Shown: positions 18,894-30,840 of the stretch, piece after piece
Layout of the letters: each line of letters opens with the position of its first letter
Position numbering within the stretch: the stretch's first letter is position 1
Source of the DNA: Azoarcus sp.
Lineage (GTDB): Bacteria > Pseudomonadota > Gammaproteobacteria > Burkholderiales > Rhodocyclaceae
Reading direction: 5' to 3'
NCBI GenBank assembly: GCA_013911595.1
Contig: JACESY010000016.1
Span: 1 to 32,026, forward strand
DNA: 32,026 bases
The notes under the pieces: generated by a model
What the model saw: only the letters and a program-made list of their open reading frames with translations
Databases searched by the model: none
What the model was told of the DNA's origin: nothing
Made by a program: the position numbers and the translations under genes

Positions 18894-18913
18894 GTCGGGA
18901 CTGAGAAATCAGG

Positions 18914-19013
<100 letters not shown>

Positions 19014-22606: not shown

Positions 22607-22640
22607 GCCCTGCAGCGACCCTTCATGGTGCATCGCAAGG

Positions 22641-22665
22641 TGCGCACGACCCGAAGCGGTGCGCA
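22641..22665. promoter_or_regulatory. Candidate upstream activator dyad for nirB
   Basis: TGCGCAC-N11-GTGCGCA, about 124 bp upstream of the -24 element; same dyad as at 29126-29150. Confidence 0.5.
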
Positions 22666-22788
22666 CTCGGCTCGAAGAAGTTCTGGCCCCGCCGGACGAG
22701 CACCCCTGATCCGCCCCACTTCCCTGCGCTTGCAGGCCTGAGGACCGGCGCAAGAGTCTGCCCCCGGATGGTGCGCACCGCCATGAGC

Positions 22789-22804
22789 TGGCACGGCGCT
22801 TGCA
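22789..22804 (+). promoter_or_regulatory. Sigma-54 (-24/-12) promoter of nirB
   Basis: TGGCACG-GCGC-TTGCA, full consensus match with GG-N10-GC spacing. Confidence 0.8.
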
Positions 22805-22813
22805 TAGGACTGG

Positions 22814-22978
22814 GTCAGGGATGCCCGACGCAGCGTCGCGAAACCGCGGCATCCGAATGAATACGTCATTCCAAAGCAGCCCGGCCAAGGACGGCCCGAC
22901 TGCCGGGCAGCCAGAGCTGCCCGAGGATCAGCGCCGATCCCTGACGACATCGAATCATGTTCCGGCCCACGCGCCGGA
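22814..22978 (+). promoter_or_regulatory. Structured 5' leader of nirB
   Basis: Hairpins: GGATGCC/GGCATCC enclosing CGACG-CAG-CGTCG; GGCC-AAGGAC-GGCC; CGGGCAGC-CAGA-GCTGCCCG; GGATC-AGCGCC-GATCC; TCCGGC-CCACGC-GCCGGA; long-range GTCAGGGAT/ATCCCTGAC. Confidence 0.5.
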
Positions 22979-22999
22979 GCGTTGTTGCGAGGGGAAATC

Positions 23000-25459
23000 A
23001 TGCGCAAACAGAAACTGGTAATGGTCGGCAACGGCATGGCCGGGGTGAAGACCCTGGAAGAACTGCTCAAGTACGTTCCCGACCAGTACGACATCACCGT
23101 CTTCGGCGCCGAGCCGCACGGCAACTACAACCGCATCATGCTCTCGCCGGTGCTCGCCGGCGAAATGGGCCTGCCCGAGATCATGCTCAATGATCTCGAC
23201 TGGTATGCCGACAACGGCATCACGCTGCACACCGGCCGCAAGGTGGTCGAGATCGATCGCATGCGCCGCGTAGTGCGTGCCGACGACGGCACCGAGGCCG
23301 AATACGACCGCCTGCTGCTGGCGACCGGCTCCAATCCCTTCATCCTGCCGGTGCCCGGCGCCGACCTGCCCGGCGTGATTGCCTATCGCGACATCGCCGA
23401 CACCGAAACCATGATCCAGGCGGCCAGCACCTGGCGCCACGCGGTCGTCGTCGGCGCCGGCCTGCTCGGACTGGAAGCGGCCAACGGCCTGGCCTTGCGT
23501 GGCATGGACGTGACCGTGGTGCACCTGGCCGACTGGATCATGGAGCGCCAACTCGACCAGCCCGCCGCCGAACTGCTGCAGGCCTCGCTCGAATCCAAGG
23601 GACTGAAGTTCGAGCTGGGCGCGCAGACCGCCGCGCTCGAAGCCGGTGAGGACGGGCGCGTGGCCGCACTCAAGCTCGCCGACGGGCGCAGCCTGCCAGC
23701 CGACCTCGTCGTGATGGCCGCCGGCATCCGCCCCAACACGGCGCTGGCCGAATCGGCCAAGCTGCACTGCAATCGCGGCATCGTCGTCGGCGACACCATG
23801 CAGACCGTGACCGATCCGCGCGTCTACGCCATCGGCGAATGCGTCAGCCATCGCGGCACCAGCTACGGTCTGGTCGCTCCCCTGTTCGAGCAGGCCAAAG
23901 TCTGTGCCAACCATCTGGCCGGCTTCGGCATCGGCCGCTACGAGGGCTCGGTAACCTCGACCAAGCTCAAGGTCACCGGTGTGGACGTGTTTTCGGCCGG
24001 TGACTTTTCCGGCGGCGAGGGATGCGACGAGATCGTGCTGCATGACCGCGCCGGCGGCGTGTATCGCAAGATCGTGCTGCGCGACGACAAGCTCGCCGGT
24101 GCGGTCATGGTCGGCGACACCACCGACGGCGCCTGGTACTTCCAGCTCATGCGCGAAGGCAAGAACGTCGCCGAAATGCGCGACCATCTGATGTTCGGCC
24201 AGAGCTTCTCGCAGTCGCATCTGGGCGACGCCGGCCACCAGGGCCAGAATCTGGCCGCCAGCCTGCCCGACACGGCCGAAGTGTGCGGCTGCAACGGCGT
24301 GTGCAAGGGCACCATCGTCAAGGCGATCAAGGAAAAGGGCTTGTTCACGCTCGACGACGTCAAGAAGCACACCAAGGCGTCGAGTTCCTGCGGCTCATGT
24401 ACCGGGCTGGTCGAGCAGTTGCTGGCTTCGACCATCGGCGGCGCCTTCCAGGCCGCCGACAAGCATTCCAAGCCCATCTGCGCGTGCACCGACCACAACC
24501 ACGGTGAGGTGCGTCAGGCGATCCGCGAGCGCAAGCTGCTGACCATCCCCGACGTCATGAAGGCGCTGGAGTGGAAGACGCCCAACGGCTGCGCGACCTG
24601 CCGCCCGGCGCTCAACTACTACCTGCTCTCGACCTGGCCGTTCGAGGCCGAGGACGATCCGCAGAGCCGTTTCGTCAATGAGCGCAGCCACGCCAACATC
24701 CAGAAGGACGGCACCTACTCGGTGGTGCCGCGCATGTTCGGCGGCCTGACCACGCCCGACGAGCTGCGCGCGATCGCCAACGTCGCCGAGAAGTACCAGA
24801 TCCCGACGGTCAAGGTCACCGGCGGTCAGCGCATCGACCTGCTCGGCGCGAAGAAGGCCGACCTGCCGCTGATCTGGCACGACCTGGGCGAGGCCGGCAT
24901 GGTCTCGGGCCACGCCTACGGCAAGAGCCTGCGCACCGTGAAGACCTGCGTCGGCTCCGAGCACTGCCGCTTCGGCACGCAGCGCTCGATGGAGATGGGG
25001 GTCAAGCTCGAAAAGATGCTCTTCGGCATGTGGTCGCCCCACAAGGTCAAGCTCGCGGTGTCGGGCTGCCCGCGCAACTGCGCCGAATCCGGCATCAAGG
25101 ATGTGGGCGTGATCGGCGTCGATTCGGGCTACGAGCTTTACGTGGCGGGCAACGGCGGCATCAAGACCGAGGTCGCGCAATTCCTGTGCAAGGTTGCCGA
25201 CGACGAGCAAGTGATGGAATACGGCGGTGCCTTCCTGCAGCTCTACCGTGAGGAGGCCTACTACCTGGAGCGCACGGTGCACTACGTCGAGCGCGTCGGC
25301 ATGGAGCACATCAAGCGCCACGTCGTCGAGGACGCGGACAACCGCAAGGCCCTCTACGAGCGCCTGCTGTTCGCGCTGCGCGACGCACCCGACCCCTGGG
25401 CCGAGCAGGCCACCCAGCCGAAGCTGCGCGAGCAGTTCGAAACGCTGCTCCCGGCGTAA
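23000..25459 (+). CDS. nirB: Assimilatory nitrite reductase [NAD(P)H] large subunit
   Basis: MRKQKLVMVGNGMAGVKTLEELLKYVPDQYDITVFGAEPHGNYNRIMLSPVLAGE; BFD-like CGCNGVCKGTIVKAI; siroheme/4Fe-4S region VGSEHCRFGTQ...AVSGCPRNCAESGIKDVGV. Confidence 0.97.
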   Translation: MRKQKLVMVGNGMAGVKTLEELLKYVPDQYDITVFGAEPHGNYNRIMLSPVLAGEMGLPEIMLNDLDWYADNGITLHTGRKVVEIDRMRRVVRADDGTEAEYDRLLLATGSNPFILPVPGADLPGVIAYRDIADTETMIQAASTWRHAVVVGAGLLGLEAANGLALRGMDVTVVHLADWIMERQLDQPAAELLQASLESKGLKFELGAQTAALEAGEDGRVAALKLADGRSLPADLVVMAAGIRPNTALAESAKLHCNRGIVVGDTMQTVTDPRVYAIGECVSHRGTSYGLVAPLFEQAKVCANHLAGFGIGRYEGSVTSTKLKVTGVDVFSAGDFSGGEGCDEIVLHDRAGGVYRKIVLRDDKLAGAVMVGDTTDGAWYFQLMREGKNVAEMRDHLMFGQSFSQSHLGDAGHQGQNLAASLPDTAEVCGCNGVCKGTIVKAIKEKGLFTLDDVKKHTKASSSCGSCTGLVEQLLASTIGGAFQAADKHSKPICACTDHNHGEVRQAIRERKLLTIPDVMKALEWKTPNGCATCRPALNYYLLSTWPFEAEDDPQSRFVNERSHANIQKDGTYSVVPRMFGGLTTPDELRAIANVAEKYQIPTVKVTGGQRIDLLGAKKADLPLIWHDLGEAGMVSGHAYGKSLRTVKTCVGSEHCRFGTQRSMEMGVKLEKMLFGMWSPHKVKLAVSGCPRNCAESGIKDVGVIGVDSGYELYVAGNGGIKTEVAQFLCKVADDEQVMEYGGAFLQLYREEAYYLERTVHYVERVGMEHIKRHVVEDADNRKALYERLLFALRDAPDPWAEQATQPKLREQFETLLPA

Positions 25460-27160: not shown

Positions 27161-27268
27161 CGGCTTTGCACAGCCGCCCCGTGTCGCGGGCGCGGAGCAG
27201 TGCTCAGCGAATTCCCCGCACCATCCCCCCGGGAGGAGAGACCCCGACCGGCCCACGGAGAAAGCGAC

Positions 27269-28978
27269 ATGAACCGCCCCGCGCCCGCGACCTTGCAGGT
27301 CGAGGTCGGCCATGCCTCGCTGCGCGGTGCACATGCGCACAACGAGGACTTCTGCGGCGCGGTCACGCCGGACGGCACTGAGCTCGACGCCAAGGGCGTG
27401 CTGGCCGCCGTCGGCGACGGCGTCGGCGGTCATGCGGACGGGCGCGAGGCGTCCGAGTTCGCGGTCCGCGGCCTGCTCGCCGACTATTACGCCACCCCGG
27501 ATACCTGGGGCATCGCGCAGAGTCTGGAAACGGTCATCAATGCACTCAACCGCTGGCTCGCCTCGCACACCGCCCGCTCGCGCGAGGCCGCCGGCATGGC
27601 CACCACGCTGTCGGCCTTGGTGCTGCGCGGGCGGCGCTACACCATCGCCCACGTAGGCGACTCGCGCATCTACCGCCTGCGCGGCGAGCGGCTCGACCGG
27701 CTGACTGCCGACCACGTATGGGCCCACCCCGAACTTCACAACGTGCTCTCGCGCGCGATCGGCCTGGATGAGCGCGTCGCGATCGACATCGCCGACGGCG
27801 ACGTCGAGCCCGGAGACGTGTTCGCGCTGCTCACCGACGGTGTATGGGAGACGCTGGGGGATGAGCGCATCGCCGAGGCGCTGGCCCAGGAGGGCGCGCC
27901 GCAGGGCATCGCACACCGGCTCGCACGCGGCGCCGAACACGCCGGCAGCCCCGACGACTGCACCGCGCTGGTGCTGCGCGTCACCGCCCTGCCCGCCGAC
28001 GACCTGCGCGACGCGATCTCGCGCATGAGTGCGCGCGCCTTGCCGCCCCTGCTCAAGCCCGGCGAGACGCTCGACGGACTGACGGTGGAGGCCGTCGTAC
28101 ATGACTCGCGCATGACGCGCTTGTACCGCGTGCGTGACGCCTCGGGTCGCCAGTACGTGCTCAAGACGCTGCGACCCGAAGCCAGTGACGCCGCCTGCAC
28201 GGCCGCACTCGCGCACGAGGAATGGCTCGCCAGCCGCGTGCGCGACGCGCACTTCCCGCAGGTCGTGCCACACCCGGCGGCGACTCGTTTGTACTACCTG
28301 ATGAGTTGGCATGAGGGCGCCACACTCGCTGCACGGCTGGCCGCCGGCCAGCCCTTCGCGGCGACCCAGGTCGCCGCGCTCGGCATCGAACTGGTCAAGG
28401 GACTGGCCACTCTGCATCGGCTGGCGATCGTGCATCGCGACATCAAGCCGGCCAACCTGCACGTGGGCGCCGACGGTCGCCTGCGCATCCTCGATCTGGG
28501 CGTGGCCGCCTCCGACGGCCAGGCCGAGGCGCGCGTATTCGGCGAAATCAACAACCCCGGCACACCCAGCTACATGGCACCGGAGCTGTTCGCCGGGGAG
28601 AGTGCGAGCGTGCGCAGCGATCTGTTTGCTGCGGGCGTGACGCTGTACGAACTGCTCACGCGACGCTTCCCCTACGGCGAGATCGAGCCCTTCCAGCGCC
28701 CGCGCTTCGGCGACCCGGTGCCACCCACGCGCTATCGCGCCGACATCCCGCATTGGCTCGAATCGGTCATCCTCAAGGCCGTCGCGCGCGATCGCCGCGA
28801 TCGCTTCGAGACCGCCGAGGAATTCCTGCTCGCCCTCGAACTGGGCGCTCACCGCCCGCTCGCCGTGCCCCGCAGCAGCCCGCTGCTGCGGCGCGACCCT
28901 GACCTGGGCATCAAGATCGCGCTGGTTCTGTCCGGCGTCCTCAACATCCTGCTGCTGTACCTGTTGCTGGCGCGCTGA
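27269..28978 (+). CDS. Fused PP2C-type phosphatase / Hanks-type Ser-Thr kinase with C-terminal TM segment
   Basis: PP2C motifs RGAHAHNEDFCG, AAVGDGVGGHADG, IAHVGDSRIYRLR, ALLTDGVWE, DDCTALVL; kinase motifs VLKTLRPE, HRDIKPANL, DLGVA, GTPSYMAPE, SDLFAAGVTLYELLTRRFPY; C-terminal IALVLSGVLNILLLYLLLAR. Confidence 0.95.
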   Translation: MNRPAPATLQVEVGHASLRGAHAHNEDFCGAVTPDGTELDAKGVLAAVGDGVGGHADGREASEFAVRGLLADYYATPDTWGIAQSLETVINALNRWLASHTARSREAAGMATTLSALVLRGRRYTIAHVGDSRIYRLRGERLDRLTADHVWAHPELHNVLSRAIGLDERVAIDIADGDVEPGDVFALLTDGVWETLGDERIAEALAQEGAPQGIAHRLARGAEHAGSPDDCTALVLRVTALPADDLRDAISRMSARALPPLLKPGETLDGLTVEAVVHDSRMTRLYRVRDASGRQYVLKTLRPEASDAACTAALAHEEWLASRVRDAHFPQVVPHPAATRLYYLMSWHEGATLAARLAAGQPFAATQVAALGIELVKGLATLHRLAIVHRDIKPANLHVGADGRLRILDLGVAASDGQAEARVFGEINNPGTPSYMAPELFAGESASVRSDLFAAGVTLYELLTRRFPYGEIEPFQRPRFGDPVPPTRYRADIPHWLESVILKAVARDRRDRFETAEEFLLALELGAHRPLAVPRSSPLLRRDPDLGIKIALVLSGVLNILLLYLLLAR

Positions 28979-29037: not shown

Positions 29038-29080
29038 ATCCGCACCCTGCGTCGCGCCACTGACACAACCCGTGCTGCAT

Positions 29081-29097
29081 CGCACCAGAGGCGTGCC
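29081..29097. promoter_or_regulatory. NtrC-like site upstream of nrtA
   Basis: C-GCAC-CAGAGGC-GTGC-C: GCAC-N7-GTGC, spacing of the canonical NtrC dyad. Confidence 0.4.
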
Positions 29098-29125
29098 CGG
29101 CACGGTGCGTGATGGCCCGCGATGG

Positions 29126-29150
29126 TGCGCACGCCGCATGCGCGTGCGCA
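29126..29150. promoter_or_regulatory. Candidate upstream activator dyad for nrtA
   Basis: TGCGCAC-N11-GTGCGCA, about 68 bp upstream of the -24 element; same dyad as at 22641-22665. Confidence 0.5.
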
Positions 29151-29217
29151 AGAGCGCCATCACGCATGCCGGCGGAACCCCCCGCAAACACTGCGGTTTT
29201 CCACAATTGCGCGCAAC

Positions 29218-29233
29218 TGGCACGACGTTTGCG
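29218..29233 (+). promoter_or_regulatory. Sigma-54 (-24/-12) promoter of nrtA
   Basis: TGGCACG-ACGT-TTGCG; GG-N10-GC spacing intact; last base deviates from consensus A/T. Confidence 0.7.
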
Positions 29234-29348
29234 TAAGTGCATTCGACGCCACCGAACTCGTGTTCCGACGATGGATCCGGGCCGGTGGCCGGGACGGAAA
29301 ACCCGTCCGCATGCGAATCAGCCGCTCCGACGATGGGGCGCAAACGGG

Positions 29349-29396
29349 GCAACGGCGCCCATGACAAGTCCTCGGACCGGTCATGGGCGCCGTTGC
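29349..29396 (+). promoter_or_regulatory. Leader terminator/attenuator hairpin upstream of nrtA
   Basis: GCAACGGCGCCCATGAC-N14-GTCATGGGCGCCGTTGC: perfect 17-bp stem within the 5' UTR; TTTC follows, TTTTTT at 29411-29416. Confidence 0.65.
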
Positions 29397-29436
29397 TTTC
29401 TGGAACCGGATTTTTTGCAAACCCAGGAGTACGACG

Positions 29437-30840
29437 ATGCACGCACACACCCCGAAATCCGCGACGCCGCCCCTGTCGCGCACCCTGCGCGGCACGGCCG
29501 CCGCCCTCGGCATGGCGTTGGCGGCGCTGACCACGCCAGCCGCGGCCTTGGGCGATATCGAGAAGCCCGACCTGAAGTTCGGCTTCATCAAGCTCACCGA
29601 CATGGTGCCGCTCGCGGTCGCCTACGAGAAACACTACTTCGAGGACGAAGGCCTGTTCGTGACGCTCGAGGCCCAGGCCAACTGGAAGGTCTTACTCGAC
29701 CGCACCATCTCCGGCGAACTCGATGGCGCACACATGCTGGCGGGGCAACCCATCGGTGCGACGATCGGTTTCGGCACCAAGGCACACATCGTCACCGCCT
29801 TCTCGATGGATCTGAACGGCAACGCCATGACGGTCTCGAACGACGTCTGGGCCGCGATGAAGCCCAACATCCCGCACAAGGACGGCAAGCCGGTACACCC
29901 GATCAAGGCCGACGCGCTCGCCCCGGTCGTCAAGACCTTCCGCGACGGCGGCACGCCGTTTCGCATGGGCATGGTCTTCCCGGTGTCCACGCACAACTAC
30001 GAGTTGCGTTACTGGCTCGCCGCCGGCGACATTCACCCCGGTTTCTATGCACCGGAACGCGGTGACACCACCGGCCAGATCGACGCCGACGTACTGCTGT
30101 CGGTGACCCCGCCGCCGCAGATGCCGGCCACGCTGGACGCCGGCACCATCCACGGCTACATGGTCGGCGAACCGTGGAACCAGCAGGCCGTGTTCCGCGG
30201 CATCGGCGTTCCGGTCATCACCGACTACGACATCCGAAACAACATCGCCGAGAAGGTCTTCGGTGTCACCGCCGAGTGGGCCGAGGCCAACCCCAACACC
30301 CATGTGGCCGTGGTCAAGGCACTGATCCGCGCGGGCAAGTGGCTGGACGAGGAGAACAACAAGAACCGCAAGGAGGCGGCAAAGATGATTTCGGCCGCGC
30401 AATACGTGGGGGCCGACTACGAGGTGATCGCCAACAGCATGACCGGCATCTTCGAATTCGAGAAGGGCGACAAGCGCGCCGCGCCCGACTACAACGTGTT
30501 CTTCCGCTACAACGCGACCTATCCGTACTACTCGGACGCAGTCTGGTATCTCACGCAGATGCGCCGCTGGGGCCAGATCGCCGAGCACAAGCCGGATAGC
30601 TGGTACCTCGAGACGGCAAAGAAGGTCTTCCGCCCCGACGTCTACCAGCAGGCCGCCGAGGAGCTGATCGCCGAAGGCAAGATGAGCGCCGCCGACTTCC
30701 CCGACTTCGCCACCGAAACCGGTTTCCGCAGCGTAGAGCACACCACCTTCATCGACGGCCTCGCCTTCGACGGCAAGCAGCCGAACGCCTACATCGATCA
30801 ATTCAAGATCGGCCTCAAGGGCAGCGAGAAAACCAAGTAA
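29437..30840 (+). CDS. nrtA: Nitrate ABC transporter substrate-binding protein (NrtA/CmpA family)
   Basis: [92 protein letters not shown]; signal peptide; ATG at 29437 with AGGAG upstream. Confidence 0.94.

Follow-up and report, generated by a model that had tools for sequence, protein, structure and literature searches.

The window, i.e., the whole 32,026-nt stretch of Azoarcus sp. DNA analyzed here (contig JACESY010000016.1), encodes nirB behind a sigma-54 promoter. Perfect matches to the sigma-54 promoter are found in the window only at nirB and upstream of nrtA. The elements of the nirB leader, including two hairpins (P1 and P2) with hexaloops that have A at position 1 and G at position 4 (A1/G4) and a predicted stem over the Shine-Dalgarno (SD) sequence, are as follows.

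22789 to 22804, + strand: sigma-54 promoter TGGCACGGCGCTTGCA, a 12/12 match; a similar site precedes the hexaloop-bearing nirB leaders of relatives
22814 to 22822, + strand: predicted transcript 5' end GTCAGGGAT / GUCAGGGAU, the 5' arm of a long-range helix
22819 to 22854, + strand: 5' hairpin domain GGATGCC/GGCATCC (22819-22825/22848-22854) with inner CGACG-CAG-CGTCG, a predicted fold, kept in G001
22876 to 22903, + strand: P1, an extended hairpin with the core GGCC-AAGGAC-GGCC (22883-22896), A1/G4 hexaloop and C:G closing pair
22905 to 22922, + strand: bridging hairpin GGGCAGC-CAGA-GCTGCCC, inside the 28-nt P1-P2 linker
22925 to 22940, + strand: P2, GGATC-AGCGCC-GATCC, with A1/G4 hexaloop and C:G closing pair
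22937 to 22945: 3' partner of the 5'-end pairing, ATCCCTGAC
22938 to 22949, + strand: 5' strand of the SD sequestor, UCCCU-GA-CGACA
22957 to 22982, + strand: apical hairpin of the sequestor, including TCCGGC-CCACGC-GCCGGA (22961-22978), with no U-tract behind it
22983 to 22994, + strand: sequestor 3' strand, UGUUG-CG-AGGGG; within it, at 22989-22994, is the Shine-Dalgarno GAGGGG
23000 to 25459, + strand: nirB, large subunit of the NADH-dependent nitrite reductase, 819 aa, recognized by its Pfam domains; the start is conserved in relatives

The sigma-54 site places the predicted +1 near 22815, which makes the transcript 5' end proposed in the earlier note sound, and all the elements listed in that note are exact in position. 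The leader RNA folds more stably than its shuffled versions (z = -3.9, with 0 of 200 shuffles as stable). An Rfam scan of the leader finds no family at gathering score; the narK RNA family gives 15.4 bits (E = 0.94), below its cutoff, and assignment to an Rfam family was rejected, as none fits. The 5' hairpins of relatives other than G001 differ from that of the window.

The A1/G4 hexaloop hairpins recur across the family. The nirB gene was taken from 200 genomes, and 131 upstream regions were read; in many relatives nirB closely follows another gene and has no leader of its own, so that these cases are uninformative. Paired A1/G4 hexaloop hairpins are found in 24 of the 131 regions, versus 0.8 expected from dinucleotide shuffles. 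After addition of named genomes to the family set, 29 leaders were compared element by element. A occupies loop position 2 in 55 of their 58 loops, and a C:G pair closes 56 of the 58 hairpins, neither feature having been used as a search criterion; these leaders agree with the code that NasR selects in SELEX in vitro, the C:G closing pair included (PMC7496416). The window hairpins reported in the earlier note (loops AAGGAC and AGCGCC) are present, each with its C:G pair, and the covariation that the note proposed to look for is seen in the P1 and P2 stems of relatives, where each position past the closing pair shows two to five kinds of standard pair. P1 appears in relatives as GGCC-AACGAC-GGCC, GCGGCC-AACGAC-GGCCGC, and other variants, and P2 as GGATC-AGCGTA-GATCC (L075/L078) or GGATC-AACGAC-GATCC (L156). 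DNA searches with the leader retrieve true homologues only in the same-genus genome and G031; the other weak matches, of those inspected, are not nirB leaders and were rejected. When the sequence model R1 is run over 399 genomes of the order, its best match outside the family is a coding sequence and the rest are not strong; within the family it retrieves 17 leaders and one weak off-target. The leaders of L272 and L280 were located with a sequence-only model.

One ANTAR protein is found in the genome (77% complete), on contig C109 and not on the nirB contig. It combines NIT and ANTAR domains and matches Klebsiella oxytoca NasR (PDB 4akk) across both (E = 5e-57). The 99% complete genome G001, from the same genus, likewise encodes one ANTAR protein. 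A NasT-type protein (the response-regulator ANTAR of the NasS/NasT system) was not found in the Azoarcus genome, where the NIT+ANTAR protein is the sole ANTAR. Its nasR gene adjoins a nas operon. The leader of this operon, directly after nasR (L001:2300-2440, G000:C109), is a textbook attenuator: P1 is AGGGUC-AAUGGC-GAUCCU, P2 is GGAC-AACGGC-GUCC, and the terminator ends with a run of six U (U6). After nasR, G001 has a sigma-54-like site, a P1/P2 pair, and then genes resembling cobA and nasA, names that are read from sequence only. ANTAR proteins are encoded in all 31 genomes that have the motif and are absent from 26 of the 106 other nirB genomes (Fisher p = 0.001, the related genomes not being independent).

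The earlier note had suggested a link to NasR or NasT and named the lack of an ANTAR protein in the genome as a refutation. Such a protein is present, as one NasR, and the ANTAR-type leader stands, given the motif, the covariation, the family-wide recurrence, and NasR in the genome; of the two proteins suggested, the one found is NasR. The nirB mRNA leader (about 22815 to 22999) is very probably a target of the nitrate-sensing NasR, whose binding is predicted.

A terminator scan of the window nirB leader finds no intrinsic terminator overlapping P2, and only UGUUGCG follows the apical stem. Judged by its recognition features, the leader is classed as a putative NasR-type ANTAR target RNA and, because of the missing intrinsic terminator, not as a transcription attenuator. 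About 16 relatives share with the window what is here called the sequestor type, in which no convincing terminator is found. In nine terminator-type nirB leaders (L027, L049, L061, L091, L122, L161, L183, L194, and L226), P2 and a long terminator overlap, and most of these terminators have a U-tract. U-tracts are absent from most window-like relatives. U-rich stretches lie near a hairpin in L004/L095 and L038/L052, L004 having a hairpin plus UUUUGUUG, and a terminator reading is possible in these four.

The leader of nrtA in the same window (29218-29440) is, by its elements, a classic NasR attenuator. The nrtA open reading frame as listed begins at an ATG (29383) within the terminator; the ATG at 29437 is probably the actual start. 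The elements are the following.

29218 to 29233: perfect sigma-54 site
29324 to 29339: P1, GCTCC-GACGAT-GGGGC
29347 to 29360: P2, GGGC-AACGGC-GCCC, overlapping the terminator
29349 to 29365 and 29380 to 29396: the two strands of the 17-bp terminator stem

What the window leader and those of about 16 relatives have in common is that the P2 3' strand (GAUCCCUGACGACA) is able to base-pair over the Shine-Dalgarno (UGUUGCGAGGGG). The window version joins UCCCU-GA-CGACA with UGUUG-CG-AGGGG and is capped by the GC hairpin. In L156, an Azoarcus metagenome-assembled genome with the same P1-hairpin-P2 architecture, UCCCU-GAA-GCGACAA pairs with UUGUUGC-G-AGGGA; double changes are seen in L078/L065, which have AUCCC-C-ACGAA with UUCGU-CG-AGGGAU, and in L038, which has CUCUG with CAGAG. 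The outer sequestor stem barely varies within the window-like class, and the UGUUGCGAGGGA block in the region of its 3' strand is near-invariant there. Because the MAFFT alignment A2 puts the inner strand of the sequestor in the wrong place, the pairs were tabulated by hand. In the coevolution test, duplexes were computed between the P2 3' segment and the sequence preceding the ATG for 17 non-redundant leaders of the sequestor type: cognate duplexes reach -16.6 versus -12.9 kcal/mol for permuted ones (z = -5.1, p about 1e-5), with the leaders sorted into the two kinds by hand after inspection and related to one another by descent. Nine terminator-type leaders have no cognate excess in the strength of this duplex (p = 0.85). 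Pairing of the P2 3' strand with the SD region thus coevolves across the sequestor-type relatives. Taken by itself, the window duplex does not exceed in strength those formed with a shuffled arm (p about 0.5), so that the case for the sequestor is carried by the relatives.

In the folding model of the window leader, forcing P2 closed costs 2.4 kcal/mol and increases the openness of the SD from 0.22 to 0.70; holding P2 closed in terminator-type leaders costs 10 to 16 kcal/mol in the model. For L156, L178, L079, L120, L114, and L127, forcing P2 gives no more open SD in the model. The GC hairpin that the earlier note placed before the ATG as a further element is present; it does not stand apart but forms the apex of the stem that sequesters the SD. 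The switch which that note saw in the leader is supported as such, with a different competitor: the best-evidenced partner opposing P2 is the downstream SD stem and not the transcript 5' end.

It is fairly probable that NasR works translationally at the nirB leader, uncovering the ribosome-binding site, in the direction ON with nitrate. The transcript would be started by sigma-54 RNA polymerase. In the absence of nitrate, the P2 3' strand, together with the nucleotides that follow it, would pair with the SD region, with the GC hairpin as a cap, and nirB with its SD sequestered would be poorly translated. With nitrate or nitrite, a dimeric NasR would grip the P1 and P2 hexaloops and keep P2 closed; its 3' strand would then leave the sequestor, exposing the ribosome-binding site, and the GUCAG/CUGAC helix formed with the 5' end may help close the NasR-bound domain. 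We infer all three parts of this scheme, i.e., NasR binding, the ON-with-nitrate direction, and the action on translation.

Transcription attenuation, in which the sequestor hairpin or a Rho site in the leader would stop RNA polymerase unless NasR stabilizes P2 and the effect on the SD would be incidental, is possible if rather unlikely. It has the precedent of the NasR and NasT leaders characterized in the literature, which act by antitermination, the nalA leader of Pseudomonas nirBD among them (PMC7496416, PMC12830290), and it agrees with the P2-overlapping terminators of L027, L049, L061, L091, L122, L161, L183, L226, and the window nrtA leader and with the U-rich L004 hairpin. However, the negative terminator scan of the window leader and the lack of U-tracts in most window-like relatives argue against it, and so does the fact that the SD arm coevolves, something not required of a terminator. 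That the hairpins are ordinary GC-rich structure without a regulator is strongly disfavored, and hardly any credence is given to it: the genome is GC-rich and the window duplex taken alone is not significant, but this leaves the excess of the motif, the covariation, the co-occurrence with ANTAR proteins, and the sigma-54 context.

The switch in its original form, with the 5' end pairing to the 3' strand of P2, excluding P2 and the 5' hairpin and forming a 9-bp helix as the NasR-free state, is very improbable. The complementarity is real and, in the window, perfect over 9 bp, of which 8 bp are kept in G001, and the predicted pairing probability of its core is 0.85 in an RNA from 22814 to near 23010. 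Its first 5 bp (GUCAG/CUGAC) stack beneath P2, however, and only GGAU/AUCC competes; the pairing leaves the SD uncovered. The helix is not kept in L156, where the homologous place has only CAGG/CCUG, in other window-like leaders, or in most others. In fragments that end at 23003 or 23010, shifting +1 by a single base cuts the core probability from 0.85 to 0.02-0.05; added coding sequence likewise reduces it. Being genus-restricted, start-site-dependent, and compatible with P2 in its core, the 5'-end pairing was rejected as a conserved switch. The 5-bp core (GUCAG at 22814-22818) would close the P1/P2 domain and not oppose P2, and the helix is possibly part of the NasR-bound state. The preferred sequestor of translation shares bases with both structures: its 5' strand overlaps P2 at 22938-22940 and the 5'-end helix at 22941-22945.

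Six nirB leaders (L115, L116, L120, L136, L138, and L139) form a separate subclass, with P2 AUGGC-AACGAC-GUCAU, a kept 5'-end closing helix CAGCG/CGCUG just 3' of P2, and the SD flanked by pairing to the P2 loop and both strands. A general closing helix between the 5' region and the bases just 3' of P2 gave a permutation p of 0.017, too weak to rely on, and was set aside. The Zoogloea-type nirB leaders of L185, L197, and L207 contain one more hairpin with an A1/G4 hexaloop (ggcaat-AAAGAC-gttgcc or the like), at about -190 from the ATG and about 80 nt upstream of P1, which is possibly an additional NasR contact.

The P1-P2 linkers of eut leaders have 5 to 12 nt, and longer ones abolish EutV antitermination (PMC3369931, PMC8934654). 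The 28-nt linker of the window is longer than EutV tolerates, a point against the proposed scheme, and contains the bridging hairpin; L156 has the hairpin GGGACCC-GCGA-GGGTTCC in its place. Linkers of 18 to 41 nt are found in 10 of the 29 leaders, most of them with a bridging hairpin. Since long linkers also occur beside unmistakable terminators (41, 38, and 21 nt in leaders with clear ones), most bridging hairpins may serve to hold P1 and P2 at working distance. The bridging hairpin was rejected as a candidate for P1 itself, as its loop, CAGA, is not an A1/G4 hexaloop.

The known roles of ANTAR proteins are antitermination of transcription and, among Actinobacteria, repression of translation. 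The balance tilts, modestly, toward a single NasR aptamer (P1/P2) wired to a terminator in some species and to an SD-sequestering stem in others, i.e., a natural ANTAR translational ON switch, many leaders having a bridging hairpin that would relax the EutV spacing rule. By analogy, such a swap of the expression platform behind P1/P2 would resemble that of riboswitches.

The nasF leader of K. oxytoca shares with this system a NIT+ANTAR NasR, two hairpins, the C:G closing pair, the A1/G4 hexaloop, and the nitrate/nitrite signal, whereas it has a P2-overlapping intrinsic terminator and the window leader has none, setting P2 against an SD sequestor and placing a hairpin between P1 and P2 (PMC7496416). 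The nalA leader of Pseudomonas nirBD is alike in its gene, sigma-54 promoter, and ANTAR control but works through NasS/NasT and transcription antitermination, in contrast to NasR and the predicted SD release in the window (reviewed in PMC12830290). Actinobacterial ANTAR-target RNAs are also two-hairpin RNAs tied to translation; there the ribosome-binding site lies inside the motif and binding represses, whereas neither it nor the AUG is inside the two-hairpin motif in the window, where the site is about 50 nt downstream (P2 ends at 22940, the SD is at 22989-22994) and binding is predicted to activate (PMC8164766). The engineered NmPAL riboptoregulator has the same logic, with binding of an ANTAR receptor relieving a cis-repressed mRNA and turning translation ON, but is driven by light, while the window leader is apparently natural and nitrate-driven (PMC11381354). 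The eutP leader of Enterococcus faecalis, bound by EutV, shares the P1/P2 recognition code and differs in the linkers, which in the nirB family also reach 18 to 41 nt (PMC3369931, PMC8934654). Ramesh et al. suggested translational control for ANTAR motif matches without terminators, an idea untried there (PMC3369931). A literature search, largely without subscription journals, found no paper describing a NasR leader with an SD sequestor. If the proposal is true, translational activation joins the ANTAR repertoire, as a natural counterpart to the engineered NmPAL switch. The presence of both leader types in one genome (terminators at nrtA and nas, a sequestor at nirB) permits their direct comparison, and the linkers with bridging hairpins depart from the spacing rule of EutV in a way that can be tested.

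Several other features of the window lie outside the nirB leader. A gene for a fused PP2C phosphatase and Ser-Thr kinase (27200-28978) is located between the gene of an MFS transporter (25907) and the genes of the nrt group. The bacterial small SRP RNA (Rfam RF00169, 77.6 bits) is encoded at 18913-19011 on the - strand. GGTGC/GCACC dyads are repeated upstream of both sigma-54 promoters (about 22625-22790 and 29080-29160) and, by eye only, resemble NtrC sites.
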